The notes below the pieces were generated by a model. The model searched no databases. It was given only the letters and a program-made list of their open reading frames with translations, and was not told the origin of the DNA. Shown here in pieces: positions 4,842 to 44,225 of a stretch of 64,000 nucleotides of DNA (the stretch's first letter is position 1; every line of letters starts with the position of its first letter). The stretch is from Parvularcula maris (lineage in GTDB: Bacteria > Pseudomonadota > Alphaproteobacteria > Caulobacterales > Parvularculaceae): the NCBI RefSeq assembly GCF_024505085.1, contig NZ_JANIBC010000009.1, positions 1 through 64,000 of the forward strand, written 5' to 3'. Position numbers and translations under genes: made by a program.

Positions 4842-6257
4842 TCAAGCCTCGCCCAGTTGTCCGTCCACCCCGATCGGCTCGACGTTCCCGTCGCGCTCGC
4901 CGTCCAAGAGAATGGTCGGTCCCGCGATGGTCTCGACCAGACGGTGGTGCGCTTCGTGGCCCAGATCGAACCGCGTGAGAATGAGTACCACGAACAGCGA
5001 ACCGGCGGCGGGCACGAGCGTCATGATCGCCTCCAACCCTCCTAGGGTGCTGGCCGTCTGGCTTGTGTTGGCAACGAAACCTGCTGCCGAAAGAAGGAGA
5101 CCAAGCAGTCCCACACCGAGACCGTTACCGAGCTTAAGAGAAAAGGTGAAACAGCCGAAGACCCCCGCTTCGATCCGGCGGCCAGTTCTTGCCTGACCGT
5201 ACTCGATGACGTCCGGTACCAAAGCCATGGTCAGCATGTTCGCTCCGCCCACCCCCATACCGACTACAACCGATAAGCCTAGCAGAGCGCCGAACCCGTT
5301 CATCGGAAGGGCATAGAACGTCACTAGAGCCAAAGCGACAAGACCGTGTGCGAACTGGAGGGCTCTCGCCTTGTCGATCCTCCGTGCCAGGAGGCCCCAT
5401 CCGGGGATAGCCAGGAACGTGGCTAGGGTGAACGCGAAGAGAGCTATACCGCCCGCTTCCTCCCGGCCGAGATTGTACTTCGCATAGTAGAGCACCATCT
5501 TCGCAAAATTAGGGAGAAGAAGCATTGCTAGAATAGCACAAACGGCGATCATCTGAAGATAGCGGTTTGCCTTCAGCGTACCGACTGCCTCGCCGAGCCC
5601 GATAGGGTCCGAACCTGCCTTACCTGGTGCGTCGATCTTTCGGAAAGCTGCTGCGTTCTGCCAGACCAGGACAACGCAGAGAACCGCACCCACCCCCGCG
5701 AAAAGCTGAAAGAGGCGCGCCTCTTCCCCCGCGCCGTCTCCGGCCAGGATCGGCCGTGTAGCGAGAGCTATGACGATCAGTGCGGCGCTGCTGAACATCA
5801 TCTTGACCGCTGCCAAGGTCGCTCGCTCACGGCTGTCCTTGACCGCCTTGGCCATCAGGCTGTTGTGCGGCACGTCGATGATGGTCAGGCTGGTGCGGAA
5901 GAGGATCGCAAAAAAGAGCGTCGTCCAGAACGCCGGTAGCCCTAAGATGGCGGGGTCGGTAAAGAAAAGAACGAAGAGACCCGCTGCCACTGGTGCCCCG
6001 GCGATCATATAGGGTCTATACTGACCGTACCTTGTCCTCGTGCGGTCGGCGATGTATCCGAACAGAGGGTCGGTTACTGCGTCCCAGAGCAGCGGGATCA
6101 ATGCGACGAGACCCGCTGCCGCCGGGGCAAGCCCGACGACATCCGTCAGGAAGAATAACCAGACCAGGTTCGGCGCATGAAAGAGCAGCGCCTTGCCGAA
6201 CTCGCCGAAACCGTAGGAGAGCTTGAGGCGGCGAGAAAGTTCGGGCCTGGTGGTCAT
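4842..6257 (-). CDS. GPH-family (MelB-like) sugar/organic anion:cation symporter
   Basis: This is a 471-residue inner-membrane carrier of the glycoside-pentoside-hexuronide family, with about 12 hydrophobic segments. The family signature is clear: D59-x3-D63-P64 followed by DRTRTRYGQYRP at about 71-82, which forms the cation site and the cytoplasmic loop after helix 2. The length is normal. It is the last gene of the nine-gene minus-strand operon and overlaps the sulfatase stop by four bases (ATGA), so it is translationally coupled. By context it would import the substrate after the TonB receptor carries it across the outer membrane, or move a desulfated product. GPH members usually carry sugars or glycosides, which hints that the substrate has a sugar or uronate part, but this does not prove it. 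Confidence 0.88.
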   Translation of the reverse strand: MTTRPELSRRLKLSYGFGEFGKALLFHAPNLVWLFFLTDVVGLAPAAAGLVALIPLLWDAVTDPLFGYIADRTRTRYGQYRPYMIAGAPVAAGLFVLFFTDPAILGLPAFWTTLFFAILFRTSLTIIDVPHNSLMAKAVKDSRERATLAAVKMMFSSAALIVIALATRPILAGDGAGEEARLFQLFAGVGAVLCVVLVWQNAAAFRKIDAPGKAGSDPIGLGEAVGTLKANRYLQMIAVCAILAMLLLPNFAKMVLYYAKYNLGREEAGGIALFAFTLATFLAIPGWGLLARRIDKARALQFAHGLVALALVTFYALPMNGFGALLGLSVVVGMGVGGANMLTMALVPDVIEYGQARTGRRIEAGVFGCFTFSLKLGNGLGVGLLGLLLSAAGFVANTSQTASTLGGLEAIMTLVPAAGSLFVVLILTRFDLGHEAHHRLVETIAGPTILLDGERDGNVEPIGVDGQLGEA

Positions 6258-7819
6258 CCTTGAGCCACCGGCTTTCTTAAAGCGCGAGAAGTTTCCATCT
6301 GCGCAGCTACTAAGCGTTCGAACATGGAGGTGCGCAAAGACGCAGAGGCGGGATCGCCATAGATATTATGCATCTCGTCGCGATCCTCGCCGTGGTCGTA
6401 GAGATCGCCGATCAGCTCCTCGCCTCGGCGAAGGGTAAGGCGGCCCTCATCGGTGACGAGGGTCAGCATATCGATGGGTGCGCCGGTGGCAGGGTCGGGG
6501 AAGATCTGCTGCTCTTCAACCAGAACATGGTCGCGTACGGACGCCTCCCGTTCTTGCAGCACGGGTGCGAGGTCGTGACCAGCGATGCCGTAATAGGGCT
6601 CGAGCCCCATGGCGCCGATCAGGGTCGGGCAAAGGTCGATGGAGCTGGCAAAGGAATCCGTCCGCCCACTGCTCACACCAGGACCCGCGATGACGAGCGG
6701 AACGCGGATACAGGCATCGTAGTGGAGGCTGACCTTCAGCATCAGGCCATGATCGCCGAACATGTCGCCGTGGTCTGCCGTGAAGACGATCAACGTATCG
6801 TCCGCCTGTCCGCTTTCTTCCAGAGCCGTAAGCACCCGCCCGACTGCGTCGTCGATCATCGTGATCATGCCGTACTCAGCGGCGGCCATCCGCTTGAACT
6901 GGTCCTCCGTCGGGCTGAAGGGCATCATCAGATGCACACCGTCGCCCCGGTTCCTGGTCATCTTTCTGAGGCTGGGCACGGAGCTGTCGTGAGGGTCGTA
7001 GAACGTCTTCGGCAGGGGAATATCTGCCGCATCGTACATATCGAAATAGCGCCCAGGAGGTGTGAACGGATGGTGTGGGTCGGGGAAGCTTACCTTCAAT
7101 AAAAAGGGGTCGTCCGAACCTTCTTGATCCCTGAGGAAGGACACTGCCTCTTCCGCCACATAGGTAGTGGGGTAGAGCTCCTCGGGCATGGAAGTACGCC
7201 AGACCTGCTGCGTGCCGAAGTCGCCGTCGAGCGCAACGGCCCTACCCTGAATATTCTTCGGATCGACTCCCTTCTCAAGAAGCCAGCGATAGTAGTGACC
7301 CGAGCAAAGGTCGGAGTGGAAGACGGTGAGACGCACATGATCGAAGCCGTAGAAGTCTTCTGGAACCTCCACATCGCCCTGACGCCAGAGGTCCATGCGT
7401 TCATGGTCAGCCCACCCGTCAGGCCAACCGAGCCGACGGCCATCCTCGGGAGGTTCGGATCCGAGGATGGCCCTGACGGCTTCCGCCGCATCATTCATCA
7501 CCTGAAGGTGCGACTTACCGACGAGACCCGTCTTGTAGCCTGCTTTCCTCGCCACGCGCGCGAACGTATTGATGCCCCAATCGAGGTCGATGCCGTTCAT
7601 CCGCGTACCGTGTCCGGACGGCATCATGCCAGTCATGATCGAAGCTCTATTCGGCATGCAGATGGGGTTGGCAACATAGGCCCGGTCAAAGACCCTGCCC
7701 CTGTCTGCCAATGCGTCAAGGTTCGGCGTTCGGACGATCTGGTTACCGCCAAAGCCCACATGATCCGCCCGGTGCTGGTCCGTCATGAACAGGAGAATAT
7801 TGGGACGGCGCGCGGTCAC
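6254..7819 (-). CDS. Cys-type sulfatase, cytoplasmic
   Basis: This 521-residue enzyme belongs to the alkaline-phosphatase-superfamily sulfatases (type I, formylglycine-dependent). It shows the N-terminal metal motif RRPNILLFMTDQ, the modification site C54-M-P-N-R (canonical C-x-P-x-R, where Cys becomes formylglycine), a GKSHL motif, and TADHGDMFGDHG for Ca and sulfate binding. There is no signal peptide, so it should act in the cytoplasm. The frame stays open further upstream, but the GTG at 7819 overlaps the GST stop as GTGA and directly precedes the conserved TARRPN, so I chose it. The gene is coupled at both ends. It probably removes a sulfate ester from an intermediate late in the pathway. 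Confidence 0.9.
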   Translation of the reverse strand: MTARRPNILLFMTDQHRADHVGFGGNQIVRTPNLDALADRGRVFDRAYVANPICMPNRASIMTGMMPSGHGTRMNGIDLDWGINTFARVARKAGYKTGLVGKSHLQVMNDAAEAVRAILGSEPPEDGRRLGWPDGWADHERMDLWRQGDVEVPEDFYGFDHVRLTVFHSDLCSGHYYRWLLEKGVDPKNIQGRAVALDGDFGTQQVWRTSMPEELYPTTYVAEEAVSFLRDQEGSDDPFLLKVSFPDPHHPFTPPGRYFDMYDAADIPLPKTFYDPHDSSVPSLRKMTRNRGDGVHLMMPFSPTEDQFKRMAAAEYGMITMIDDAVGRVLTALEESGQADDTLIVFTADHGDMFGDHGLMLKVSLHYDACIRVPLVIAGPGVSSGRTDSFASSIDLCPTLIGAMGLEPYYGIAGHDLAPVLQEREASVRDHVLVEEQQIFPDPATGAPIDMLTLVTDEGRLTLRRGEELIGDLYDHGEDRDEMHNIYGDPASASLRTSMFERLVAAQMETSRALRKPVAQG

Positions 7820-8622
7820 AGCGCCTCTTCTTTGCCCAAGGTCTCGCGCCATGCGGCAATGCGCTCCGTGCCCGCACGGCCTGCCTCGTTCATGGCAGCG
7901 ACCTTCTCGGAACGCTCCACATCGGCGAGGGCTGTGCGGTAGGACGCCCGGCTCTGAAGGGAAGCCCACCAGTCCGCCAGATGAGGGCGCTCCGCCCACA
8001 GCCAGTCGAGGCCTAGATGGGCGAAACGGTTAAGGTAGGGTGTCCACGCCGCATCAGCGAGGGAGTAGCTGCCTGCAAGGTAAGATGCTTCCGTCAGCCG
8101 TGCCTCTGCTTCGGCGATAGCACCGTCGACCACGGCGAATGCCTTGCCGACACCAGGAAAATCAAGCCCCTGGTCAAGAAGGGCCGCTCGGATCATGCGC
8201 TCCTGGGGGTCCTTGGTTGCCTCGAGCATGGCCTTGCCGCCATCGGGACGCTCGAGATGATCCTGACGGAAAGCGATCGCGTAGGAGAGCACCCCCGTCA
8301 TGCGGTGAAGGTCGTCGTCGATCCGCTTCATCCACCAACGCATGGCCGCCCTCTTCCCCGCATCCGCCGGACGTAGAGCCGGGTCGGGAAAGGCGTCGTC
8401 TAAATACTCGATGATCACCGTGCTCTCGGTGACCACGGTGTCGCCATGCACCAGAGTCGGCACGACACCGCGAGGATTGAGCGCTTTATAAGAGGGATCA
8501 CGCTGGTCCCCCGCCCTCAGATCAAGCTCCCTCCCCTCCCATGCGATAGCCTTTTCGGCGAGCACCAGGCGCACTTTCTGGGCGCAGGTGGAAAGGTCGT
8601 TGTGGTAGAGGGTCAGGCTCAA
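7816..8622 (-). CDS. Glutathione S-transferase family protein
   Basis: This 268-residue protein has an N-terminal thioredoxin-fold domain (about 1-80) with a catalytic-type STC motif at residues 11-13, the cis-proline motif VPTL (P55) and the glutathione-binding ES pair (E66, S67). A helical C-terminal domain follows (about 95-240). It is longer than typical GSTs of about 210 residues. Known bacterial GSTs in catabolic operons act as beta-etherases, reductive dehalogenases or maleylacetoacetate/maleylpyruvate isomerases. The FAH, dioxygenase and hydrolase neighbours fit any of these, and I cannot choose from sequence alone. The gene lies 11 bases after the FAH gene and overlaps the next sulfatase by four bases. 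Confidence 0.88.
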   Translation of the reverse strand: MSLTLYHNDLSTCAQKVRLVLAEKAIAWEGRELDLRAGDQRDPSYKALNPRGVVPTLVHGDTVVTESTVIIEYLDDAFPDPALRPADAGKRAAMRWWMKRIDDDLHRMTGVLSYAIAFRQDHLERPDGGKAMLEATKDPQERMIRAALLDQGLDFPGVGKAFAVVDGAIAEAEARLTEASYLAGSYSLADAAWTPYLNRFAHLGLDWLWAERPHLADWWASLQSRASYRTALADVERSEKVAAMNEAGRAGTERIAAWRETLGKEEAL

Positions 8623-8633
8623 GCTTTTCCTCC

Positions 8634-9503
8634 TTAGGCGATCAGTGTCTCGGCCTTCTCGGCCACGATGCGGTTCTCGATGGTTCCTATGCGGTCGAAC
8701 GCCACCTTCATGACGTCACCCACTTGGCGGAAGACCGGCGGCTTCATAGCCACGCCGACACCGCCGGAAGTACCGGTGAAGATCAGATCCCCAGGCTCCA
8801 GGGTAAAGGCCCTGCTGAGATGGGCAATCTGATCCCAGCAGTCGAAAACCATGTGTTTCGTGTTCGAACGTTGTTTCTCCTCGCCATTGACGTGGCAGGT
8901 GAAGTCGAGGTCATGCGGGTCTCCGATCTCGTCCGCCGTAACGATCCATGGACCGGTGGGCCCATGGGTGTCGAAACTCTTACCCATGGTCATGGTAGGC
9001 GTGGCGAGCTGCCAGTCGCGTACCGAAACATCGTTGCCGCACATGTAGCCGAACACGACCTCATGCGCCCGCTCCCGCGGGACATGCTTGGCGCGCTTGC
9101 CGATCACCATGACAAGTTCCGCCTCGTAATCGAGGTAGTGGGAGACCGAAGGCATGTTCACATCCGCATAGGGACCGTTGACGCTGCCGCGCTGCTTGTT
9201 GAACCAGATCTGCTCCTTCGGTTTGTCGAGGCCCGTCTCTTCGATGTGGTCGGCATAGTTCAGCCCGATGGCGAGAATCTTTCCAGGCGATGGCACAGGC
9301 GCCTCGAGGGCTACCGCCGACAGGGGAAACGACGTCGCCTTACCGGCAACCTGCCTCAGCCCGTCCATCGCCTGCTCGCCTCCCTCGATCAGGGAGATCA
9401 TTTCCGTCGGAACAGTGCCGCTAGCGGAGATATCAAGCACTTGTTCGCCCTCGACCACTCCGATACGCGTGCGGCCACCTTGCGTGAAGGTTGCGAGCTT
9501 CAT
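8634..9503 (-). CDS. Fumarylacetoacetate hydrolase-family protein
   Basis: This 289-residue FAH-fold enzyme probably cleaves or hydrates a 2-oxo or diketo acid ring-cleavage product. The metal-site motif DYEAELVMVIG supplies E127 and E129, and D158 comes from GNDVSVRD. The substrate-side GKSFDTHGPTGPW follows at about 174-186. The motif LAIGLNYADHIEETG (about 78-91) is typical of the 2-hydroxyhepta-2,4-diene-1,7-dioate isomerase and ureidoglycolate lyase group. The ATG at 9503 overlaps the upstream stop as ATGA and precedes the conserved MKLATF start, so the longer frame is rejected. It is one of two FAH proteins in the locus; the other is divergently transcribed at 16580. Confidence 0.92.
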   Translation of the reverse strand: MKLATFTQGGRTRIGVVEGEQVLDISASGTVPTEMISLIEGGEQAMDGLRQVAGKATSFPLSAVALEAPVPSPGKILAIGLNYADHIEETGLDKPKEQIWFNKQRGSVNGPYADVNMPSVSHYLDYEAELVMVIGKRAKHVPRERAHEVVFGYMCGNDVSVRDWQLATPTMTMGKSFDTHGPTGPWIVTADEIGDPHDLDFTCHVNGEEKQRSNTKHMVFDCWDQIAHLSRAFTLEPGDLIFTGTSGGVGVAMKPPVFRQVGDVMKVAFDRIGTIENRIVAEKAETLIA

Positions 9504-10438
9504 GACCGTGCTCCTCTGAGAAGGGGGTGCACCGGTCCCCATTGAGTGTCCAGCAGGGACATCAGCGTGTGCTGCTGCTTCTGATCGGTGGCGTCTATCC
9601 GGTCGCCATCGGTCCAGTGCTCCAGAATGAAGCCGAAGGGATCGCGCCAGTAGTCGAACATATGTGCACCGACGACATGGCGCCCGACACCCCAGTCATG
9701 CTTGTAGCCTTCCCGTTCGAGATGGGCGTGGCCACGCATCAGATCGTCGATCCCCTCCACCTCGAAGGCGGCATGTTCGAAGGCCGGCTCCCCGCCTTCC
9801 ATGATGAAGAGGGTGTGATGGTCCGTCGTAGCCTTTCCCCGGTCGCAGCGCAGGAAGGCACCGACGACGGTTTTGTCGTCCATGCCTAGGGCTTCATCCG
9901 AGACGAGAACACCGAAACGGTCCTGATACCAAGCAAGGCTCTCCCGATAGCTTCCTACCTTGAGGACCACATGGCCGAGACGCCTGACCGACGAGGAGCC
10001 GGGCGGCAGAACCAGACGGCCGCCCGGTCTACCCTCGCGGCCATGCTCATTACGTAGATAGCCAGGCTCCTTCGAGGGGGGCTCATTGGAGGGAGCCACC
10101 GCAGTGACACTCCAGCCATCAGGATCGGTGAGGCACACGGATGGACCTGCATCGCTGTCCTCGACAGTCCGACCATCTATCTCTGCAAGCGCCTCGAGAC
10201 CCTCGCGGCTGACGGCGAAGCTGAAGCCGCGAAAGCGTGCCGTATCGCCCTTATCCGCCCGGTAGATGACTGGGCCCCCATGGCTTCCCGCCATACCCAG
10301 CACCTGGCTGTTGCTGACTACCTCGGTAAGCCCGAAATCCGTGAGGAAGCAGCGAGCAGTCTCGAGATCCGGCACGTCGAAGTGCACGGCAAGAATATCG
10401 TCCGCCTTCGCCGCAGAGGGAACGCTGCGCAAGGTCAT
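9500..10438 (-). CDS. Extradiol dioxygenase-like VOC-family protein
   Basis: This 312-residue protein has two vicinal-oxygen-chelate modules. The C-terminal one (about 150-280) keeps the type I extradiol dioxygenase metal triad H156 (GHVVLKV), H222 (FEHAAFEV) and E273 (ILEHW). Candidate catalytic residues are H254 and Y263 in the VGRHVVGAHMFDYW region. The N-terminal module (about 14-115) lacks an obvious metal set, as in two-domain extradiol enzymes. It would open a catechol-type ring in meta fashion and feed the FAH protein. The ATGA overlaps on both sides mean it is translated together with the hydrolase and the FAH protein. A glyoxalase-like role is the alternative. Confidence 0.85.
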   Translation of the reverse strand: MTLRSVPSAAKADDILAVHFDVPDLETARCFLTDFGLTEVVSNSQVLGMAGSHGGPVIYRADKGDTARFRGFSFAVSREGLEALAEIDGRTVEDSDAGPSVCLTDPDGWSVTAVAPSNEPPSKEPGYLRNEHGREGRPGGRLVLPPGSSSVRRLGHVVLKVGSYRESLAWYQDRFGVLVSDEALGMDDKTVVGAFLRCDRGKATTDHHTLFIMEGGEPAFEHAAFEVEGIDDLMRGHAHLEREGYKHDWGVGRHVVGAHMFDYWRDPFGFILEHWTDGDRIDATDQKQQHTLMSLLDTQWGPVHPLLRGARS

Positions 10439-11370
10439 GACACGGCCTTTAGCCTACCTGGAAGCGGGTTGGCGTGGATGAAATCCACGATGCCTCGTAC
10501 CAGCTCCTCGGGGGCGTCTTCCTGGATGAAGTGGTGGCCTCCTTCGATGGTGCGGTGGGCCTGACCGGCGGCACCTGGCATGTTGTTCTGAAGCTGCTTG
10601 TCCCAGCCCGCCGTCACCGGGTCGCTATCGCCAAAGAGCGTGAGCACCGGACCGCCAAAGCGCGAGAGAGTCGTCCAGGCCGCCCGGTTGTCGGCCGCGC
10701 CCGGATCGTTGGCCTTCACCGGGACGAGGCTTGGAAAGATCCTGGCCGCCGCCTTGTACGAGCCTTTCGGGAAAGGCGCCTCGTAAGCCGCGACCTCCTC
10801 ATCGCTTAACGTCCTCGTGCTCGCCCGTTGCAGCACTCGGCCGATGGGCATGATCGGCGACCATTTGGCGATGCGCTGCCAACGCATGAAAGCGTCCGAC
10901 ATGCCCTCGCCGCGCGGAAGGCCCGAATTGCTGACCACCACACGGGCAAAGCGCTCAGGTTGCTCCGCCACTAGACGAAGACCAATGAGACCGCCCCAGT
11001 CTTGGCAGAAGAGTGTCACACCGCGAAGGTCCATGGCCGTAAGAAAGCTCAGCATCCACTGCACATTGCGGCGATAGCTGTAGACTGACTTGTCCGATGG
11101 CTTGTCCGACCGCCCGAAACCGATGAGATCAGGCGCAACCACGCGGAATCCAGCCTCGGCCAGGGGTGGGATCATGTGCCGGTAGAGATAGGACCAGCTC
11201 GGCTCACCATGCATGAGAAGCACGACCTCGCCATCCTTCGGCCCCTCATCCACATAGTGCTGACGAAGCGTGCCCAGGCCCTCATCGACGATATCGACAT
11301 AGTTCGGCGCGAACGGATAATCCGGTAGATTCTCGAAACGCGCATCAGGCGTGCGCAGGACCTGTCCCAT
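10435..11370 (-). CDS. Alpha/beta hydrolase of the haloalkane dehalogenase group
   Basis: This 311-residue hydrolase matches haloalkane dehalogenase subfamily I in layout. The oxyanion motif HGEPSWSYLYR is at about 54-64. The nucleophile D124 sits in CQDWGG (an Asp, not the Ser of esterases), followed by W125, which in this group helps bind halide. The catalytic acid is D248 or D250 in FGDSDP, and the base is H280 in GGHHF. The Asp nucleophile argues for a dehalogenase or epoxide-hydrolase-like reaction rather than an ordinary C-C hydrolase. There is no signal peptide. It starts three bases after the sulfatase stop with GAGGAG upstream, and its end overlaps the VOC gene. Substrate identity is unknown; a halogenated natural aromatic would fit. 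Confidence 0.88.
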   Translation of the reverse strand: MGQVLRTPDARFENLPDYPFAPNYVDIVDEGLGTLRQHYVDEGPKDGEVVLLMHGEPSWSYLYRHMIPPLAEAGFRVVAPDLIGFGRSDKPSDKSVYSYRRNVQWMLSFLTAMDLRGVTLFCQDWGGLIGLRLVAEQPERFARVVVSNSGLPRGEGMSDAFMRWQRIAKWSPIMPIGRVLQRASTRTLSDEEVAAYEAPFPKGSYKAAARIFPSLVPVKANDPGAADNRAAWTTLSRFGGPVLTLFGDSDPVTAGWDKQLQNNMPGAAGQAHRTIEGGHHFIQEDAPEELVRGIVDFIHANPLPGRLKAVS

Positions 11371-11373
11371 GGT

Positions 11374-13089
11374 TCAACTCCTCGCAAAGCTCGGCAGGAA
11401 GCTGCCGTCATCGGTGCCGATCTCCTCGGCGATAAGCGTCTCGAGTCGACGGCTCATCTCCAGAACTTTCTTCTGGTAGAGAGGGTCGTAGGCTAAGTTG
11501 ACGACCTGGTTCGGATCGGCCCGGTCGTCGTAGAGCTCGATGTCGTTGAGCCCAGTGAGCTCGTCCCACCCTTGCGGGCTGTGATGTTTCTTGGGGCTGA
11601 AATAGCGTGCGAAGGTATAGCCGCTGCCGGTGATGCCGCGCATCTGACCTCGCTTCTCGGCAGCGTCCGCCAGCTCTTCTCGCTGCATCTTCCAGTAGGC
11701 GTAGGCACGTCCGAGCCCCTCGCGTTCTCGCACCTCCTCCCAGGCATTGGCCGCCTGATGGTCGATGAAAGCGAGGCTGGTCCAGTGGACGAGGACACCG
11801 TCGGCACGCGGACCGAGGCCGCTGCCTCCAGCCGCCTGGGCGGACAAGTCCTGGCCCACCACGGTTGGGACATTGCTTTTGATCTCCGCAGTATCGACAC
11901 CGGCCAGACCCAGGAGGGTCGGCACCAAGTCCACATGGCTGATCGGCGCTTCTGTAGTCCCTGACCCTCCGCCGAGCATGCTGACCAGCATCGGTACACG
12001 GCTCGCCTCGGCATAAGGGGTCACGCCCTTTCCGCGCAGGCCGTGGGCGCCGAGAAACTCGCCGTGATCGGAAGTGAAGACCACGATGGTATCATCCATG
12101 GCCCCCATCGCCTCAAGACCGCTCAGCAGCGTCTCAAGCCGCCGATCGCAGTCCCGCATGGCGTTCCAATAGTAGTTCTGAAAGCTCCTGGCGATCTCTT
12201 CGTCATCATAGGGAAGAACGCCGAAGATCTGCTCATAGGCCCTGGCATACTCCGCCACCGCCGCGGGCTTGCCCTTACGGGTTGCCGGTCCCCATGAACC
12301 GAAGACATCATAGCCGAGGTCTTCGGCATAGAGCGGGTCGTCCGGGGGCGGTAGGATGCGCTGAAGCTTGACTTTCTGTGAGCGGACCATAGCATCGTTG
12401 GCCGCGAAATACATGATATCGTGGGGATTGACGAGGTTCACCGCCATGAAGAGCGGCTTGCCTTCTTCACCCCTCCTCGCCGCCATGGACAGCGCCTGAC
12501 CCACCGTGCGCTCGTCGTGGCGGTAGCCGGCCCAAGGGCCGTCTACCTCCATGGTGGTGAGCGGATGGTCGAAGCCAGCCGCCCTCACCGCTTCCTTCAC
12601 GCGGTCTTCCGGGTAGGGACTTCCCCCTTTACCTAGACGGCTGAGATGCCACTTGCCGCAATAGGCCGTCTCGTAGCCTGCATCCTGGAAGAGGCTACCC
12701 ATGGTGGCGATGTCCTGCCGGATGTCGGTGGCGTAGGGGATTGGCACGTTCTCCCAGACGGCCGAGGCCTGGGGGTGAGCGCCGGTGTAGATCGTGCCCC
12801 TGGCCATGGAGCAGAGCTGGCTTGGCGTGAAGGCGTTCTTGAACGAGATGCTTCGCTCGGCGAGCCGCGCCCTTGCCGGACAGTGGGTCTCGATGAAACC
12901 CGAAGGCATAAGGTCCCAAGAGCGCTCCTGATCCGAGGTGATCAGAATTACGTTCGGTCGGCGTGACGTGCTCCGTGCGATCGCCGCATGGGGACGTTCA
13001 GCTTTCTTCTCTCTCGTGATCCCATACGCGGCAGCGGCAGCGCCCGTCATCAGTCCAGCGCCGATCAGTATATCGCGGCGGCGGGGCAC
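11374..13089 (-). CDS. Tat-exported sulfatase with atypical C-S-M-A-R active site
   Basis: This is a 571-residue type I sulfatase. A twin-arginine-like start (RRRDILIGAG then a hydrophobic stretch to about residue 22) suggests export to the periplasm by Tat, possibly as an uncleaved anchor. Catalytic features are the RRPNVILITSDQ metal motif, the GKWHL motif and TSDHGEFLGAHG. The modification site reads C93-S-M-A-R, so the Pro or Ala expected at the third position (C-x-P/A-x-R) is Met. I chose the GTG at 13089, one base after the TetR stop, because GGGGAGG sits 9 bases upstream; ATGs at 13107 or 13134 would overlap the TetR gene. It would desulfate substrate entering through the TonB receptor, before the cytoplasmic enzymes act. 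Confidence 0.85.
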   Translation of the reverse strand: MPRRRDILIGAGLMTGAAAAAYGITREKKAERPHAAIARSTSRRPNVILITSDQERSWDLMPSGFIETHCPARARLAERSISFKNAFTPSQLCSMARGTIYTGAHPQASAVWENVPIPYATDIRQDIATMGSLFQDAGYETAYCGKWHLSRLGKGGSPYPEDRVKEAVRAAGFDHPLTTMEVDGPWAGYRHDERTVGQALSMAARRGEEGKPLFMAVNLVNPHDIMYFAANDAMVRSQKVKLQRILPPPDDPLYAEDLGYDVFGSWGPATRKGKPAAVAEYARAYEQIFGVLPYDDEEIARSFQNYYWNAMRDCDRRLETLLSGLEAMGAMDDTIVVFTSDHGEFLGAHGLRGKGVTPYAEASRVPMLVSMLGGGSGTTEAPISHVDLVPTLLGLAGVDTAEIKSNVPTVVGQDLSAQAAGGSGLGPRADGVLVHWTSLAFIDHQAANAWEEVREREGLGRAYAYWKMQREELADAAEKRGQMRGITGSGYTFARYFSPKKHHSPQGWDELTGLNDIELYDDRADPNQVVNLAYDPLYQKKVLEMSRRLETLIAEEIGTDDGSFLPSFARS

Positions 13090-13090
13090 C

Positions 13091-13675
13091 CTACGAAACC
13101 TCCCCATTGGTGATCCGCAGACGGATAGCGACAAGGGAGTCGATGAGGAGTTCCCGATCTATCTTGCTCTGGTCCGACAGCCACCAGCTCAGAATCTCGT
13201 TCATCAAACCGGTCTCGGTTCTAGCCGCCATCTCAGGGTCAATCCCCGCGCGGTAGAAGCCTGTTGCCATACCTCGCTTCAAGCCTGCAGCCCGTTGATG
13301 GATGAACATCTCGGTGACGTTCTGCTCAGTCAGGCGCTTGGCGCCCTCGTCACGCAGGGCGATGCGGATGAGATCGGAGTTTTCGGCAGTGAAATCGACG
13401 ATGATCGTCACATCGCGCCTGTGCTGCTCTTCCGCGTTGGATGCTTCGCCGTCCGCATCACGAAGCTTGGCAGCCAACCCTTCATAGGCCTCAGTCAGGA
13501 ACTCCGCGACCAGCTCGGACTTGTTGCGGTAGAAATTATAGAACGTACCGTTGGCTACCTCGGCATCGCGGCAGATCTGAGCGACTGAAACAGCCTCTAC
13601 GCCCTTCTCTGCAAACAGCTTGAGACCGGCATCGCGTATCACCAGCTTGTAGTCGTAGAACGGATCGTCGCTCAT
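13091..13675 (-). CDS. TetR-family transcriptional regulator
   Basis: This 194-residue regulator has an N-terminal TetR helix-turn-helix (about 12-58; core VSVAQICRDAEVANGTFYNF) and a ligand-binding helical C-terminal domain. TetR proteins usually repress and release DNA when bound to a small molecule. It sits second in the operon, 8 bases after the TonB receptor gene, so it is probably autoregulated with the pathway. The likely operators are the paired 22-bp repeats in the promoter region at 16370 and 16485; this link is inference from position and symmetry. The inducer is presumably the substrate or a pathway intermediate. Confidence 0.92.
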   Translation of the reverse strand: MSDDPFYDYKLVIRDAGLKLFAEKGVEAVSVAQICRDAEVANGTFYNFYRNKSELVAEFLTEAYEGLAAKLRDADGEASNAEEQHRRDVTIIVDFTAENSDLIRIALRDEGAKRLTEQNVTEMFIHQRAAGLKRGMATGFYRAGIDPEMAARTETGLMNEILSWWLSDQSKIDRELLIDSLVAIRLRITNGEVS

Positions 13676-13683
13676 GGCCTTCC

Positions 13684-16320
13684 TCAGAACCCCTGTGTGA
13701 TGCCGACATAGACCAGACGGCCACGGGGGTCGGCAAGAAGCGGGTCGTAGCCGCCACGGTCTAACACGAAGGGCGGGTCCTCATCGGTAACGTTGATCGC
13801 ACCGATACGGATCAGTGTGTCCTTGTCACCGAACGTATCGTTCATGGTCAGCGCGTACTGAAGATCGAGAGTGGTGAAGCTGTCGATCTCGGCGCCGCCG
13901 TTGAGGTCGTCCTCGTAGCTGTCCGTGTAGCGCGTGATGGCCGTGAAGCGGTGTGGCCCCAGTTCCCAGCCAAGCTGCAGGTTGCCGCGCAGCTCGGGGG
14001 CCGGCCTGGTGAAGCTGGTCACGTTGCGGCTGCCCAACCTGTCGACACTGGGGCCGTCTGGCGTTTCAGCGACATCGAAGCTTGCCACCCACGTCCCCAT
14101 GAGGTCAGCGCTGAAGCTGCCCCAACTGTCCGTATCGCGTGTGTAGCCTAGGGACACATCAAGGCCGTCGGTCTCGATCTCGCCAGCATTGACAAAGTTC
14201 ACTTCGATCTGACTGATCTGTCCAGTGGCCGGGTTGACGCTAAGGCCGTCCGCGACCGGAACGACAACGCCTGGCGCGACAGTCTGGCAGGTTGCACCGG
14301 CTGCCACCGCCTCGACGCTCTCACGGGTGATCACATCCTCATAGTCGTAGCGCCAGTAGTCAGCCGAGAAACGGAAGCCCGCTCGGCGGTTGTCATAGGC
14401 GAAGCCCGCCGAGTAGGTGACGGCTTCCTCCGGATTAAGATCACTGTTGCCATTCGTCACCAGCGATGCGGCCACGCGTTGCCCTGTGCAGGGGTTGACG
14501 ATGGGTCCAACCTGGTTGGTCGTGCCGCCGGTCTGAAGCGGGGTCGGCGCCCGGAAGGAGGTGCCCACCGAACCTCTGAGCAGAAGACCGTCCGCCACCT
14601 CAGCGGTCACCGCCACCTTCGGATCGAGTGTATCACCAATACCGTCGGAGTAGCTTTCATACCGGAGCGCCGCTTGCAGATCGACACGATCCGTCAGCGG
14701 TATCTGCGCCTCGCCATATACAGAGGCGGCACTGATCGTCTCTTCTTCGAAGTCGTCGGTGGGGAACAGAAAGACGAGCTGTCCAGGTGTGTTGAACAGG
14801 TCGTCCGCATCGAAACCAGAACGGTTGGCGCGCCATTGGACACCGAGAGCGTAGCCGATGGGACCGCTATCGAGCAGACCTCCTGCTGCACCGGAGATGC
14901 TGGCATCGACCACATCCATCGAGCTCTCGAAGTCGATCGGCACGGACACCGTTGCCGCCTCGACGATGGCAGGGTCGTTAGCAAGAGCGGGATCGGTCTG
15001 GGCCGTGCCGAAGACGTTGATATCGTTTCTGATAACGTTCGTGCCAGGAAGGAAGAACACAGATGCCAGAAGATCGTTGAACGCGATGGTGAAGTCGTTC
15101 TCGGCGTGGACGTAGGAAATCTCAGCACGCCTGCCGCTGTCCGTCTCATGGGAGATGCCGGTAGCGACCCGCCAGGTCTCACTTTCAGAGGTCTCATCGA
15201 CCCCGCCCTCGGTCAGGTCGAACGGCCTGCCGACAAACACTGCGGGAGCGCCGAACGGGTTGAACTGGTTGGCTGGCGAGACGACGAGCGCGCCTGACGC
15301 CCCTGCACCAGGAAGCGAGGGCGGACGGCCCGTCACCGTGGCCTCCGAGTCGGCATAGGAGACTTCGACAAAGGCCCCGAAGCCGTTCGGCGCCTCGTGG
15401 CGGATATCGCCCCAGAGGGCCAGACGCTCCTCGTTGGGCACCAGCGAGAACTGTTCCCTTGTGGAGACTTGACAGAACTGACCACCAGGGGTCGTCAGCG
15501 GATTGCCTCCGGCCGCCGCACAGGATGGATCGACGATCGGCCGACCTACCGGCGTGCCCGCGAAATCCGGATCGGCAGGCGGAGCCAGCAGCACGAAGCT
15601 GCCTGGGCGAGCCGTGGCGATCTCGAACTCCGTCCCCTGATCGGTGAAGTCACGATCGGTGAAGCGTAGCTCGCTGCGATCGAAATAGGTGGCCGCTAGG
15701 GTCACATGGGTGCTGTCACTACCAAAGCCCGCGAGGAAGTTGAGGGTGAGGTCCTCCTGGCTGTCCTCGGTCGTCGTTTGATACTGCGCATCGAGCTCGA
15801 TTCCCTCGAAGCCCTGGCGGGTCACGAAGTTGACCACACCAGCGACCGCATCCGAGCCGTAGACTGCCGAAGCACCGGTTTTCACCACTTCGGCCCGTTC
15901 GATAAGGGACAGAGGGATCTGGTTGATGTCGACGAACTGACTGCCATCGTTGGCAAAGGTCGAAGACAATGTGTTGCGGCGACCGTTGGTCAAGACCAGT
16001 GTCGCCCCAAGCCCCAGACCGCGCAGGTTCACCTGCGCCGTACCCAGCGTATTGTTCTGCGTGAAAGCCGAGCGGTTGGCTTCGGAGCCGTAGTTTGCAG
16101 GGATGTCGGTGACCAAGTCGGACGCCGTGGAGAAGCCTGCGGACAGAACATCCTCCCGGCCATAGACATCGACGGGCGTCACGGCCTGGAACTGATCACC
16201 TTTGATATTCGTCCCCGTAACGACAATCTCGTCGATCTCCTGCTCGTCAAGCTCCTGACCGCTAGCAGTACCTATCAATGCCGCTACGCAGCAGCTACCC
16301 AACAGCAACCGATAAGACAT
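13684..16320 (-). CDS. TonB-dependent outer-membrane receptor
   Basis: This 878-residue receptor has a signal peptide (about 1-21), a TonB-box-like acidic segment followed by DEIVVTGTNI, a plug domain (about 45-170; LRGLGLGATLVLTNGRR and AEVVKTGASAVYGSDAVAG are typical), and a 22-strand-type barrel ending in the aromatic C terminus VYVGITQGF. The N-terminal wording resembles the large group of alphaproteobacterial receptors used for plant and algal glycans or aromatic compounds, not siderophore receptors. As first gene of the operon it defines the substrate as too large or too scarce for porins. Expression energy would come from TonB-ExbBD encoded elsewhere. The start at 16320 leaves a 259-bp divergent promoter region. 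Confidence 0.93.
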   Translation of the reverse strand: MSYRLLLGSCCVAALIGTASGQELDEQEIDEIVVTGTNIKGDQFQAVTPVDVYGREDVLSAGFSTASDLVTDIPANYGSEANRSAFTQNNTLGTAQVNLRGLGLGATLVLTNGRRNTLSSTFANDGSQFVDINQIPLSLIERAEVVKTGASAVYGSDAVAGVVNFVTRQGFEGIELDAQYQTTTEDSQEDLTLNFLAGFGSDSTHVTLAATYFDRSELRFTDRDFTDQGTEFEIATARPGSFVLLAPPADPDFAGTPVGRPIVDPSCAAAGGNPLTTPGGQFCQVSTREQFSLVPNEERLALWGDIRHEAPNGFGAFVEVSYADSEATVTGRPPSLPGAGASGALVVSPANQFNPFGAPAVFVGRPFDLTEGGVDETSESETWRVATGISHETDSGRRAEISYVHAENDFTIAFNDLLASVFFLPGTNVIRNDINVFGTAQTDPALANDPAIVEAATVSVPIDFESSMDVVDASISGAAGGLLDSGPIGYALGVQWRANRSGFDADDLFNTPGQLVFLFPTDDFEEETISAASVYGEAQIPLTDRVDLQAALRYESYSDGIGDTLDPKVAVTAEVADGLLLRGSVGTSFRAPTPLQTGGTTNQVGPIVNPCTGQRVAASLVTNGNSDLNPEEAVTYSAGFAYDNRRAGFRFSADYWRYDYEDVITRESVEAVAAGATCQTVAPGVVVPVADGLSVNPATGQISQIEVNFVNAGEIETDGLDVSLGYTRDTDSWGSFSADLMGTWVASFDVAETPDGPSVDRLGSRNVTSFTRPAPELRGNLQLGWELGPHRFTAITRYTDSYEDDLNGGAEIDSFTTLDLQYALTMNDTFGDKDTLIRIGAINVTDEDPPFVLDRGGYDPLLADPRGRLVYVGITQGF

Positions 16321-16369
16321 TCTGCGCCCCTTTCCACACGGATGATCACGCTCTTCCCTGACATGCCGC

Positions 16370-16391
16370 TTCTTGATGAGCGACCTCTCAT
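16370..16391. promoter_or_regulatory. Candidate operator, copy 1 (TonB operon side)
   Basis: This 22-bp sequence recurs with 20 of 22 bases identical at 16485-16506. Inside it, ATGAG-N6-CTCAT forms a 5+5 inverted repeat, a size suited to a dimeric regulator. It overlaps the expected start of transcription from the minus-strand promoter at 16396-16424, where a repressor would block the operon. The operon's own TetR protein is the natural candidate ligand. Confidence 0.6.
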
Positions 16392-16395
16392 GGCA

Positions 16396-16424
16396 GTTGA
16401 ATGCAAACCTCTACTTCTGTCAAC
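16396..16424 (-). promoter_or_regulatory. Candidate promoter of the catabolic operon
   Basis: On the minus strand a perfect TTGACA (16424-16419) is followed after 17 bases by TTCAAC (16401-16396), a weak -10 with three matches to consensus. Transcription would start near 16389, inside operator copy 1 and about 70 bases before the receptor ATG. A poor -10 is common in alphaproteobacterial promoters. Confidence 0.4.
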
Positions 16425-16484
16425 TCTAATTATATGCTGCACTGCGGTACGATACTTCACGAACGTGGCGCCGTATCAGCTATG

Positions 16485-16506
16485 TTCTTGATGACAGACC
16501 TCTCAT
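16485..16506. promoter_or_regulatory. Candidate operator, copy 2 (FAH side)
   Basis: This is the second copy of the 22-bp element, in the same orientation and 115 bp from copy 1. Its inverted repeat is slightly degraded (ATGAC-N6-CTCAT). It lies 74-95 bases before the divergent FAH start, so one regulator could control both transcription directions. The spacing of 115 bp is near 11 helical turns, which would allow looping. Confidence 0.55.
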
Positions 16507-16579
16507 TTCGTGAAAGGGTTGCCTTCGATGTTGAGGTGAGGGGTGCTGGTTCGCCACATACCGCCCCAGGGATAGAGCG

Positions 16580-17554
16580 ATGAAGCTGGTCACTTTCCGA
16601 CGTTCGGACCACCGCATACCAGAACTCGGTGTCCTGACAGAAGGGCGCGTCGCGAGTCTGACCGCGCTGGAGAAAGGGCCTGCCTTCTCTTCCATGCAAG
16701 CCTTGATCGATGCAGGACCGGAAGCGTGGGAGGCTGCCAGACAAGCCGAAAGCACCCTACCCGCCAGCGCCTTTCTGAGAGAAGGCAGCTTCACCTTACT
16801 GGCTCCCCTACCCATTCCTGTGCAGATCAGGGACTTCATGGCTTTCGAGCTGCACCTTCGGCAGTCTCTGGAAAGCGTAGCCCGGCTCCGCGCTATGGCC
16901 GCCGGGACGGACCAGGAAGAGGCGGTCGAAGCCGCCCGCCGCGCTGGTCAGTTGGAGCCGCCGCCGGTTTGGTTCGACCAGCCGGTCTACTACAAGGCCA
17001 ACCGCTTTGCCGTCTCCGGTCCGGACGACACTATCTTATGGCCGTCCTACTCATCACTAATGGACTACGAGTGCGAACTTGCCTGCGTGATCGGCAGGCA
17101 AGGACGTGATATCGGCAAGAAAAACGCGGCCGCGCATATCTTCGGCTATACGGTGTTCAACGATTTTTCCGCGCGTGATGCTCAGTTTGCTGAGATGGCT
17201 GGGATGCTGGGTCCGGCAAAAGGAAAGGATTTCGATGGCGCCAACGCTATGGGGCCATGTATCGTTACCCCGGACGAGATTGGCGACCCCTATGATCTGG
17301 ACATGACCGTTACCGTGAACGGCGAACACCGCTCGACGGGCAGCTCTTCTTCGATGCATCATCGCTTCGAAGACATGATCGCCTGGGTCAGCCGCTCGGA
17401 AACGCTGCAGCCTGGCGAGATTTTCGGGTCAGGTACGGTCGGCGGAGGATGCGGCCTCGAGATGATGCGGTTGTTGGAGGACGGCGATTGCGTCGAGATC
17501 ACCATCGAGAAGATTGGCACGCTTACCAATACCATCCGAACAAAGGCGCCCTAG
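16580..17554 (+). CDS. Second fumarylacetoacetate hydrolase-family protein
   Basis: This 324-residue FAH-fold enzyme is transcribed away from the operon. Metal ligands are E164 and E166 in DYECELACVIG and D195 in FNDFSARD; KGKDFDGANAMGP at about 214-226 is the substrate-side motif. It differs from its paralogue at 8634 by a longer N-terminal half with an extra helical section (about 95-130) before WFDQPVYYKANRF, resembling the longer fumarylacetoacetase-like branch. It probably handles a different acyl-pyruvate or diketo intermediate of the same pathway, or the same reaction on a bulkier substrate. Control is probably shared with the operon through the paired 22-bp repeats. It stands alone on the plus strand. 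Confidence 0.9.
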   Translation: MKLVTFRRSDHRIPELGVLTEGRVASLTALEKGPAFSSMQALIDAGPEAWEAARQAESTLPASAFLREGSFTLLAPLPIPVQIRDFMAFELHLRQSLESVARLRAMAAGTDQEEAVEAARRAGQLEPPPVWFDQPVYYKANRFAVSGPDDTILWPSYSSLMDYECELACVIGRQGRDIGKKNAAAHIFGYTVFNDFSARDAQFAEMAGMLGPAKGKDFDGANAMGPCIVTPDEIGDPYDLDMTVTVNGEHRSTGSSSSMHHRFEDMIAWVSRSETLQPGEIFGSGTVGGGCGLEMMRLLEDGDCVEITIEKIGTLTNTIRTKAP

Positions 17555-17622: not shown

Positions 17623-18999
17623 CTAAATGAAGAGATCCAATGATACGGGATCGAAATTGGCTCTGTTAGGGAGCGCGGCAGCGATCTCGTCACTCGTGAG
17701 GCCCCACCACCGGCCTAAGGGATCGGCAAACTGTTCCACGGCGAGGGTGGGGATGAGGCGCCCTCCGCCTGCATCCTGATCATGGCCGAACAAAGGCTCA
17801 GGAATGTCTCCCAGGATCTTCCGCCCCCTGACGGCACCGCCCATGACAAGATGGTGACCACCCCATCCATGGTCGGTGCCATCCCCGTTCACGGCCAGCG
17901 TTCTGCCGAAATCGGAGGCGGTAAAGGTGGTCACCTGGTCCGAAAGACCAAGCTCCTTCAACGCGCCATCGAAAGCAGAGAATGCGCCGTCGATTTGAGA
18001 GAGGAGGCCAGGCACCGTATCCGCTTGTCCTGAATGGCTGTCAAAACCGCCAGTGCCGACGAAGAAGATCTGGCGATGTGCAGAGAGGGCTCCCCTGATC
18101 GACATGGTTTCGGCGACGGCCTTAAGCTGACTACCCAACGAGCTTTCCGGAAAGGCGGTCGAGAAGCCGGCGGCACCGACACGCGCGGCATCGAAGGCGG
18201 TATTGGCGTCAATTCCTGAACGGAACTTTTGCGCCATATCACGGGCAAGGATGTTCGATCCCGTGAAACCATCCGCTCGGAAACGGTTCTTGGCTGCTTC
18301 GAGGAAGCTGCTGAACCCTAGCGCTTCGAAGCTTTCGATCGCAGTGATACCCGCGGAGCCGCTGAGCGAGACTTGATAGGGGGAAGCAATCCGGCCCGTG
18401 AGAAACGGCCCGACACCTGCTGTGGCCAAGGTCGTGAAGGCGGCGCCGCCCGAGTTGGCGCCGGAGGCGAGGACTGCGTCGGCGAAGAGGCCGCCCCATC
18501 CGAGCTGCGCACCTTCCGGAGCACTGGCCTGCCAGACGGACTGCTGATCGTTGTGAGAAAAAAGACGGGGCGGAAGCTTGACGCCTCCCTCTACCGTGGC
18601 CGCGGTAACAGGCTCGATCAGTGGACCGACATTGCCGATGACAGCGACACGCCCCTCGTCGAAGAGTGCCTTGATGAAAGGCATTTCCGGCGGCAAAGCA
18701 AACTGTCGGCTGCCGAAGGAAGAGGCGTTGTCGGGGTTCAGCGGCAGGAGGTTCTCACGTGACCTTCCCCCGCCATAGCCGTTCAGAAGGGTCTGTCTGA
18801 TGCCCGCGAAACTATCGTAAGAGGGCTGGTCGTAGGGAAGGATCAGATCGTGACCGTCGAGACCCCCGAACAGGAAGACGCAGACCAAAGCCTTGTAGCC
18901 GCCCGTATCTGCCGCGTGAGCTGTCAGAGTACCCGGAAGGCCGGCCATGGCAGATCCGGCGAGGGCGGAGGCAAGGAACTTCCTTCTGTCGAGCCGCAT
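17623..18999 (-). CDS. DUF1501 family protein, Tat-exported
   Basis: This 458-residue protein has a twin-arginine signal (DRRKFLASALAGSAMAG, cleavage after AHA near residue 29) and the DUF1501 start VCVFLFGGLDGHDLILPYD (about 39-57). The family is sulfatase/phosphatase-like in fold but its reaction is not established. The later motif FVGTGGFDSHSGQ and the TASDFGRTLAVNGDGTDHGWGG stretch (broken here for length, about residues 355-376) are typical of it. It follows the DUF1800 gene by 11 bases. These two families nearly always travel together in marine and soil bacteria. The encoded protein should be periplasmic and may act on the same target as its partner. Confidence 0.92.
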   Translation of the reverse strand: MRLDRRKFLASALAGSAMAGLPGTLTAHAADTGGYKALVCVFLFGGLDGHDLILPYDQPSYDSFAGIRQTLLNGYGGGRSRENLLPLNPDNASSFGSRQFALPPEMPFIKALFDEGRVAVIGNVGPLIEPVTAATVEGGVKLPPRLFSHNDQQSVWQASAPEGAQLGWGGLFADAVLASGANSGGAAFTTLATAGVGPFLTGRIASPYQVSLSGSAGITAIESFEALGFSSFLEAAKNRFRADGFTGSNILARDMAQKFRSGIDANTAFDAARVGAAGFSTAFPESSLGSQLKAVAETMSIRGALSAHRQIFFVGTGGFDSHSGQADTVPGLLSQIDGAFSAFDGALKELGLSDQVTTFTASDFGRTLAVNGDGTDHGWGGHHLVMGGAVRGRKILGDIPEPLFGHDQDAGGGRLIPTLAVEQFADPLGRWWGLTSDEIAAALPNRANFDPVSLDLFI

Positions 19000-19010
19000 T
19001 TTCTTCTCCC

Positions 19011-33200: not shown

Positions 33201-33346
33201 GTAGATGGTGAGGACGGACTAGGAGCTTGAGGTTCTCTGTCGGTAGAACCACCGCCACCACCGCAGGCCGAAAGAGCGAGCGCGGCCACGGTGGCACCCG
33301 GCAGAGCTATGAGGCTCCTTCTACGAAACCATCTCGAGCCGTCCAT
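30215..33346 (-). CDS. M60-family (enhancin-like) metallopeptidase lipoprotein
   Basis: This 1043-residue protein has a basic N terminus (FRRRS), a hydrophobic stretch and lipobox LSAC with C28, so it should be a lipoprotein, possibly Tat-routed. A Gly/Ser/Pro linker and a cadherin/Ig-like domain (about 58-150; FSLSFTATDPDGDSL) follow. The catalytic region carries HEHGH at 819-823 with a third ligand candidate E833, matching the H-E-x-x-H-x(8-24)-E pattern of M60 peptidases. M60 enzymes cut mucin-type and other O-glycosylated proteins; the substrate here is unknown. The ATG at 33346 is preferred over the one 33 bases upstream because it begins the signal sequence. A 554-codon frame on the opposite strand is a shadow. 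Confidence 0.88.
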   Translation of the reverse strand: MDGSRWFRRRSLIALPGATVAALALSACGGGGGSTDREPQAPSPSSPSTPPAPPPASNSAPTISSDGGADRSTVIGSAFSLSFTATDPDGDSLNLTALNMPSFLVLDEAASTIAGTPGDEDTGYYSDITIEVSDGQEKAELVFHLTVLEGGMEAALATGDHRHVTDPADYYAALAAEIEAGKTRFDPLLWPLFGYEENGGSTAGSLNWLVWEPVGPVAALSAGFGAQAPVLLPTAGWRDGHLALGAAGTVGGTKWLALGGNPVRDAALDPSSVNTQFSDFLDNVLSWLTGTDSGSSPSVVTAHLAESFDDPARSSVRNWLDAQLGAKLNTEQSCDGASLVKCIDAGSDLLVISGHVPTSQSAEELAAGVRAAFERGVPVLYFHHEGGLSRGSEAVLRVLGLTHAQDLSETSVQIGGWDPSSLFSTLPDEVAATRDILIDLKAGSYDYDFGACDETRCPNEHPWTTTFNPAVTDLKELFDRLDEHGIDLFTEEGRTYEKLLVLLADHLRSKVEFPISAPSYQIAEFHRGMFADHIHPTVRSLNPKQPDLGTFAEKDLSGVDPVSVTVDRTSYKGFRSTGTYALPGRSFTVTRLDSAEGDAWIRVNSNRSGSVRQFGNDSYTFRWDGYSYYRRPKHVATAKVRLRAGESVTLTTAIGGPVHVYFETEGEKMSFRFEGVGQHPYWRSPEDNAAFAAAIAAEEYDWVEVATQDFEIHGKMNGYYYMPGLMERYDDYMGDWVATYTDYTKLFHRWIYEVGGFEGGLVPGDPQIKAFAEARGLPMRKLDEIEHIYADQASCSSGCGGNPADIDGRFEPTGTIAIHEHGHGVEHYTSLFEGWEFHSQTDLYMHYHQRRQVEVWGDEHAPHTGRSLKYKEMYELLQQARNEADPESFMQDYRIGKSWQESQVVMMQLLSIAANETTIDGGWMALGMMQVMQTAFEEAKEGDDLWYERRAGLGYSGWAREDAAELNMNDRLLVTWSEVLGRDVTAWLEMWGLTFGDTAKAHVASKGYLQQSLVFYAHDNASHRMGLEADALPVDGTTPWPVD

Positions 33347-33458
33347 TGTGTCTGCCCTTCCCAACAACCAACCGACCATAGGTCTGCAGGGTGAAAAGAT
33401 CGTTGGCTCAGCGATCTAGGGTTGCGGCCGGACCAATTCAGAAACAAAGCCGCAGGTA

Positions 33459-42541: not shown

Positions 42542-42784
42542 ATGTCTGCCTCATCTCGTTTACAAGCCGACCGTCTCCGCGTTGCTCTTTGCCAGCTTTC
42601 TACGCTGATAGAAGCGAGCGAGAAGACGGGCGCAGCGTCTCCCTACTGGCCGCTCTTCGACCGTTTGGAGAACGAGCTGGAGAAGGTCGAGGCTCGTTCG
42701 CAAAGGCTTGCTGACTATCTGGACGACCATCAAATCGCTGACCTTAGATTGACGGAACGATCTCAGGCGCGAAATAAAGCGTAA
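42542..42784 (+). CDS. Small unrecognised helical protein
   Basis: This 80-residue protein appears mostly helical (RLRVALCQLSTLIEASE, then ENELEKVEARSQRLADYLDD). It has no signal peptide or membrane segment. Its last 41 bases overlap the 3' end of the convergent integrase gene. It may be an accessory element gene. No ribosome binding site stands out. Confidence 0.45.
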   Translation: MSASSRLQADRLRVALCQLSTLIEASEKTGAASPYWPLFDRLENELEKVEARSQRLADYLDDHQIADLRLTERSQARNKA

Positions 42785-44111: not shown

Positions 44112-44225
44112 GTACTTCTCACTCTCTGTAGTGCAATTTGTAGTGCAAAACAACGAGCAAGGGCAATGAAGTACGCAGAGCATCGGAAAAATGCTCAGTT
44201 TCACAGTAACTTATCTGGAATCCTA

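Follow-up and report, generated by a model that had tools for sequence, protein, structure and literature searches.

In the dnt pathway, 2,4-dinitrotoluene is degraded with the help of a monooxygenase (DntB), a trihydroxytoluene oxygenase (DntD) and an isomerase/hydrolase (DntG) (PMC10602510). The present analysis concerns ten genes at positions 4842–17554 of the first 64,000 nucleotides of contig NZ_JANIBC010000009.1 (the 64-kb window) from the alphaproteobacterium Parvularcula maris. They encode two sulfatases (SulfA and SulfB), a haloalkane dehalogenase (HLD) homologue, an extradiol-type dioxygenase of the VOC family, two fumarylacetoacetate-hydrolase-family enzymes (FAH1 and FAH2), a GST-family protein, a GPH-family symporter, a TetR-family regulator and a TonB-dependent receptor. 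The same trio of HLD, GST and VOC-type dioxygenase is present in the lindane (Lin) pathway in the form of LinB, LinD and LinE; however, that pathway is not known to include sulfatases and LinB belongs to another HLD subfamily, whereas here all of these enzymes lie in one conserved operon. No description of such a cluster was found in the open-licence papers searched. On balance, we consider the locus probably to be a horizontally moved catabolic unit under TetR control. Its substrate would be a sulfated aromatic of the catechol type, most likely one bearing two sulfate esters. This reading draws on protein families, key catalytic residues, gene order, co-occurrence and operator-like repeats, from which we infer the reactions, the order of the steps and the substrate.

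A pattern scan for the VOC gene across 84,980 species genomes, of a kind that detects close relatives only, returned three genomes, and its best match was Erythrobacter rubeus KMU-140 (stretch L025). All ten genes are found in this strain in identical order and orientation (53–71% identity), with an extra GST-family gene downstream. A first-pass annotation of the window had suggested looking for the same gene order elsewhere; the full order was recovered in E. rubeus, and because it recurs there as a whole, the cluster is more than a chance assembly. The record of E. rubeus FAH2 (L025 2987–3939) is split across two reading frames, through either a mutation or a sequencing error. Nine genomes of the same genus contained no good relative of the VOC gene and one weak match (2.5e-6, in genome G007). 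Further comparisons used 398 genomes of the window's order (G000–G397) and 397 genomes of the E. rubeus family (G398–G794). Since the two samples share no genome, P. maris and E. rubeus probably belong to different orders.

Relatives of SulfB at 1e-110 or better occur in two of the 398 order genomes (P. maris and G281), compared with 11 of 398 at 1e-60. At 1e-100 they are found in three of the 397 genomes of the E. rubeus family (E. rubeus itself, which is G398, G561 and G766), and at 1e-110 in three of 385 genomes of the class (P. maris, G914 and G1017). The seven SulfB sequences form one branch with 96/99 support in a 21-row tree. VOC and FAH genes accompany SulfB in all seven genomes, together with a hydroxylase in four, a GST in four, an HLD in three and a second sulfatase in two. 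Because the SulfB relatives all lie near extradiol VOC and FAH genes, the uncharacterised sulfated-aromatic pathway put forward in the first-pass annotation is well supported, and the metal ligands of the VOC are conserved as well. In G914 and G1017, SulfB lies with a hydroxylase, FAH1 (57% identity), a VOC (39–40%) and a GST, and in G1017 also with a TetR gene. The G281 cluster consists of FAH1 (about 50%), an AMP-ligase, a VOC (36%), a further FAH (35%) and SulfB. G561 has SulfB, an amidohydrolase and an SDR-like gene, with a hydroxylase, an FAH and a VOC within ~7 kb, the latter two ~5–6 kb from SulfB. In G766, SulfB is found with a hydroxylase, an FAH, an HLD homologue (44%) and a divergent VOC cut at the contig end, which was detected by blastp at 6e-9 and missed by tblastn at 1e-8.

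The hydroxylase, which is of the MhpA type, is encoded in four of the five clusters with one sulfatase (G766, G561, G914 and G1017) and in neither of the two clusters with two sulfatases. The enzymes of G766 and G1017 score 443 and 479 bits against the 3-hydroxyphenylpropionate/cinnamate hydroxylase model and pass its cut-off of 390; the best PF01494 matches in the two full-cluster genomes reach 115 and 118 bits, versus 242 for the G766 hydroxylase. The simplest reading of this exchange is that the ring of a monosulfated phenol could be opened only after both desulfation and hydroxylation, and that of a disulfated catechol after two desulfations and no hydroxylation. Two sulfatases without a hydroxylase thus suggest a disulfated catechol. 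As to the prospect, raised in the first-pass annotation, that relatives might degrade a non-sulfated and non-aromatic substrate, the phenol hydroxylases of the related clusters indicate, by family, phenols and catechols instead. As a control, four stretches near SulfB relatives with the canonical motif (G037, G097, G167 and G011) contained a VOC in none at 1e-8 and an FAH in two; these were four of nine such loci, and G037 has a VOC–FAH–hydroxylase trio in its next 20 kb (L030). The canonical-motif relatives of G037 (L029 6077–15842) and G097 (L032) lie near TetR and FAH genes. L029 also has a gene resembling those of TonB receptors, and inspection by eye suggests genes for an alpha/beta hydrolase and a small VOC protein.

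In eight aligned VOC sequences, the His, His and Glu that serve as extradiol metal ligands are invariant, and the DHH and FDYW stretches are kept. The VOC scores 31–42 bits against the named extradiol equivalogs HpaD, C23O, BphC and HsaC, far below their NCBIfam cut-offs of 320–450. A structure prediction of the VOC from three sequences was discarded (mean pLDDT 35). Both FAH enzymes belong to the FAH superfamily, and the nearest relatives of FAH1 are diketo-acid hydrolases and HpcE-like enzymes. The GST passes no named-family cut-off, reaching 73.9 bits against TIGR01262 (maleylacetoacetate isomerase, zeta; cut-off 171.05). Among solved structures LigF comes closest to it (73 bits), and other close GST classes score nearly equally, so the ether cleavage proposed earlier is unsupported. 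The same applies to a glycosyl or uronyl part of the substrate, for which the earlier argument was only the family name of the carrier: the carrier is indeed a GPH symporter, and no glycosidase is present among the ten genes.

The HLD homologue scores 448.7 bits against the curated haloalkane dehalogenase subfamily PRK00870 (cut-off 265) and aligns over its full length with the solved dehalogenases 4mj3, 6f9o, 5esr and 2xt0; unlike these, it is encoded together with sulfatases and ring-cleavage enzymes in a single operon. Its catalytic residues, an Asp nucleophile followed by Trp, a cap Trp, an acid Asp and a base His, are conserved relative to 4mj3 and 6f9o and in the copies of E. rubeus and G766 (350.3 bits for the latter). 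Halogen removal, as first proposed, is plausible given the family assignment by score and residues and the HLD in a further SulfB cluster (G766), and a brominated substrate is likewise plausible. Known HLDs act on sp3 carbon–halogen bonds and are not known to remove aryl bromine. No pertinent account of the natural role of haloalkane dehalogenases was found among the open-licence papers listed.

As read from the sequence, the two sulfatases differ in their N-termini, SulfB having a twin-arginine stretch and SulfA no visible signal. The first-pass annotation had described a Tat-like signal on one and none on the other, and its proposal of periplasmic followed by cytoplasmic desulfation is consistent with these termini. 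Both proteins contain the sulfatase domain PF00884 (158 bits for SulfA and 144 bits for SulfB). The motif of SulfA, CMPNR in both the window and E. rubeus, agrees with the type I sulfatase signature, given as (C/S)-X-(P/A)-X-R (PMC6189696), and its closest solved relatives are the sulfatase-family 4upl/4upi, choline sulfatases and phosphonate monoester hydrolases. In the SulfB clade, the motif is C-[SA]-[MT]-A-R, with Met at position +2 in four of the seven members and Thr in three. At the 30 sulfatase loci that score highest in the order, position +2 was read directly as Pro in 25 and Ala in two, with three not found; a looser count over the same loci gives 27 Pro and three Ala, with L075, L076 and L078 depending on a loose six-frame pattern. 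Residues other than Pro or Ala also occur outside the SulfB clade: two more distant relatives, from Leptolyngbya and Skermanella, have Ser, and the Skermanella relative lies near an annotated FGE-family gene. On a Klebsiella plasmid, a gene annotated as an anaerobic sulfatase maturase lies immediately upstream of a distant SulfB relative (L054 5821–7689).

Profile matches for each of the ten genes bear out the coordinates and families of the first-pass annotation (Table 1). Open reading frames and profiles place nine genes on the minus strand, transcribed in the order TonB receptor, TetR, SulfB, HLD, VOC, FAH1, GST, SulfA and GPH, with FAH2 divergent on the plus strand. Three starts were revised: SulfA from 7999 to the GTGA overlap at 7819 (521 aa; the E. 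rubeus homologue has 520 aa), FAH1 from 9542 to the ATGA overlap at 9503 (289 aa) and SulfB, probably, from TTG 13134 to ATG 13107. Most of the genes had been described as coupled by ATGA/GTGA overlaps. This goes slightly too far: strict 4-nt overlaps occur at four of the eight minus-strand junctions (SulfA/GPH, GST/SulfA, VOC/FAH1 and HLD/VOC). TetR and SulfB overlap by 17 nt, and the remaining three junctions have gaps of 3, 8 and 11 nt. The nine minus-strand genes are likely to form one transcription unit.

Table 1. Genes and operator-like sites of the cluster, with positions in the 64-kb window.
Feature	Position	Strand	Basis and remarks
GPH-family (MFS_2) inner-membrane symporter	4842..6257	-	TIGR00792 262.2 bits vs cut-off 231.35; PF13347
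SulfA, cytoplasmic sulfatase, motif CMPNR	6254..7819	-	PF00884; GTGA start; no signal sequence seen
GST-family protein	7816..8622	-	Under the cut-off for maleylacetoacetate isomerase; LigF closest among solved structures
FAH1, fumarylacetoacetate-hydrolase family	8634..9503	-	PF01557 230 bits; likely 289 aa from ATGA overlap
VOC, two-domain extradiol-type dioxygenase, His-His-Glu ligands	9500..10438	-	PF00903; HpaD/C23O/BphC-like, below cut-offs
HLD, haloalkane dehalogenase family hydrolase	10435..11370	-	PRK00870; alignment with 4mj3 and 6f9o
SulfB, Tat-type exported sulfatase, CSMAR replacing CxPxR	11374..13107	-	PF00884; alignment; clade; revised start
TetR-family regulator	13091..13675	-	PF00440
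TonB-dependent outer-membrane receptor	13684..16320	-	PF00593, PF07715; 70% identity to E. rubeus copy
Operator-like site TGAGAGGTCGCTCA	16377..16390	-	Pattern match; same motif in E. rubeus divergent region
Operator-like site TGAGAGGTCTGTCA	16492..16505	-	Pattern match
FAH2, divergent FAH-family enzyme	16580..17554	+	PF01557 207 bits; 53-61% identity to E. rubeus copy

The region between the TonB receptor gene and FAH2 contains TGAGAGGTCGCTCA and TGAGAGGTCTGTCA, which are the sole two matches to TGAGAGGTNNNTCA in the window (0.05 expected), and L025 of E. rubeus contains one match (0.01 expected); the pattern was picked after the sites had been seen, so these expected counts flatter it. With two mismatches allowed, patterns of this kind occur no more often than chance predicts. 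In E. rubeus, the divergent region has TGAGATATCTCTCA and TGAGAGGTATCTCA separated by six bases. The longest word common to both divergent regions is 8 bases, with TGAGAGGT as the only one, and none of 9 or 10 bases is shared. The repeats resemble a putative TetR operator pair. TetR would bind these TGAG-N6-(C/G)TCA repeats, and binding of the substrate or a product would release transcription in both directions.

Horizontal movement of the cluster appears likely. A tyrosine integrase gene (window 42744–44312) directly adjoins tRNA-Leu(gag), and a gene of the TrbI conjugation type is found at 37805–39088; the left end of the island lies outside the view, as the window starts at base 1 of the contig. 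A search of the window at 13 nt detected no att-site repeat matching the tRNA-Leu region. In E. rubeus, an integrase-like gene lies ~0.8 kb beyond FAH2 and scores below the cut-offs of its models. Small Tra-like open reading frames were noted by eye, and together with the integrase and the TrbI-type gene they resemble the remains of a conjugative island. Elsewhere in the window, 30215–33379 encodes a protein with IMPa-type metalloprotease domains and, by eye, a lipoprotein-like start, and 17623–20855 holds a DUF1501–DUF1800 pair; the orthologous pair of G009 is about 68–69% identical, and genes other than the sulfatase cluster lie beyond its DUF1501 end. At the contig start (1–4800) are open reading frames without a Pfam match (four scanned).

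In the proposed pathway, the TonB receptor would bring the sulfated compound across the outer membrane, the Tat-exported SulfB would take off one sulfate in the periplasm and the GPH symporter would import the remaining sulfate ester. SulfA would then take off the second sulfate in the cytoplasm and unmask a catechol, for which reason no phenol hydroxylase would be needed. The VOC would open the ring by extradiol cleavage and FAH1, perhaps aided by FAH2, would hydrolyze the diketo acid. The GST may be a glutathione-dependent isomerase or a dehalogenase, and the HLD homologue may strip halogen from an sp3 carbon, either in the substrate or in an intermediate. Chlorosulfolipids, bartolosides and seagrass flavonoid sulfates were also weighed as substrates, and the evidence does not discriminate between these and bromophenols. 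A fitting natural candidate would be a bromophenol disulfate of red algae, for example lanosol-4,7-disulfate, in which one sulfate is aryl, the other is benzylic and two bromines are present. Such a substrate would account for the dissimilarity of the two sulfatases, for a catechol dioxygenase that has no hydroxylase beside it and for the dehalogenating enzymes, which amounts to a fit and not a demonstration. Lanosol-4,7-disulfate is described as a major metabolite in an extract of the red alga Vertebrata lanosa (PMC9322897).

Several observations weigh against the reading as a disulfated-catechol pathway. The CSMAR motif of SulfB departs from the sulfatase signature in lacking (P/A) at +2, and no known sulfatase maturase (FGE or anSME) was found in the P. 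maris or E. rubeus genome; thus, SulfB may be slow or may not be a sulfatase at all. The anSME model TIGR03942 has no match in either of these full-cluster genomes, and the sole FGE-family gene in each is EgtB (527 and 540 bits; cut-off 360). The P. maris genome is 99.45% complete, leaving room for a maturase on missing contigs, and among the SulfB genomes the maturase search covered these two and G281. G281, whose SulfB also has CSMAR, tempers the puzzle with FGE-family genes, one at 205 bits. In favour of the reading, no further PF00884 sulfatase was found in P. maris beyond SulfA and SulfB, and none by the PRK13759 arylsulfatase model in E. rubeus, where PF00884 was not run. Either a maturase has gone unrecognized or the sulfatases may function unmodified at a low rate. 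Recombinant choline sulfatase of E. meliloti is reported to be active unmodified at a low rate in vitro, and the maturation machinery of E. coli was called unidentified as of 2015 (PMC6189696). The HLD and the GST, in three and four of the seven clusters, are not core components, and among the operon enzymes only the GST, perhaps, could remove an aryl halide. The exchange of hydroxylase for sulfatase is based on seven clusters, and the single-sulfatase cluster of G281 lacks a hydroxylase within its 20-kb stretch. FAH2 may be dispensable, given the E. rubeus frameshift; the odds are unaffected, because the core reading needs no FAH2.

A pathway for a sulfated phenol without halogen, with the HLD homologue recruited to hydrolyze an ester, lactone or epoxide in a ring-cleavage intermediate, is unlikely but credible: the HLD is found in just three of the seven SulfB clusters and the remaining module requires no halogen, whereas its PRK00870 score (448.7 bits for a cut-off of 265) and its end-to-end alignment with solved dehalogenases, including the post-nucleophile and cap tryptophans, argue for a true dehalogenase. 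Doubtful is a version in which the pathway is dedicated to a brominated catechol disulfate of the lanosol-4,7-disulfate type, giving the HLD a natural task, and both sulfatases work without FGE or anSME, SulfB via C-[SA]-[MT]-A-R, by another maturase or free of formylglycine. The lack of a lower-pathway gene (aldolase or dehydrogenase) among the ten, the rest of the genome not having been searched, would agree with sulfur scavenging from aryl sulfates or detoxification of halogenated algal phenols rather than growth; yet ring-cleavage dioxygenases and FAH enzymes belong to carbon pathways, and SulfB occurs with VOC and FAH in all seven clusters, so that such a role seems very improbable. Catabolism of a sulfate-conjugated, oestrogen-like steroid, with the VOC as an analogue of 4-hydroxyestrone 4,5-dioxygenase and the sulfatases cleaving steroid sulfates, also appears remote. 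The known oestrogen-type cluster includes a TonB receptor (edcT); however, the ten genes comprise no P450 and no edcC-like oxidoreductase, and the related one-sulfatase clusters encode MhpA-type hydroxylases.

The cluster links a clade of exported sulfatases with genes for ring cleavage and places an HLD homologue in a defined, regulated operon, thereby offering haloalkane dehalogenases a natural context. E. rubeus KMU-140 is a named strain in which both the link of sulfatase to ring cleavage and the role of the HLD are testable, and the two full-cluster genomes offer canonical and non-canonical formylglycine-type sulfatases without a recognized maturase. Among known systems, DntD and DntG of the dnt pathway are of the VOC and FAH types, respectively. 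By description, the dnt pathway resembles the cluster; its substrate is a nitroaromatic, and no sulfatase is among the dnt genes named in the source. Plasmid VOC–FAH–MhpA modules of Microvirga ossetica and Prescottella equi differ from the cluster in having a flavin hydroxylase and no annotated sulfatase, haloalkane dehalogenase or TonB receptor in their 19-kb stretches, but they resemble it in a VOC that is 35–39% identical, an FAH gene and a nearby TetR gene.

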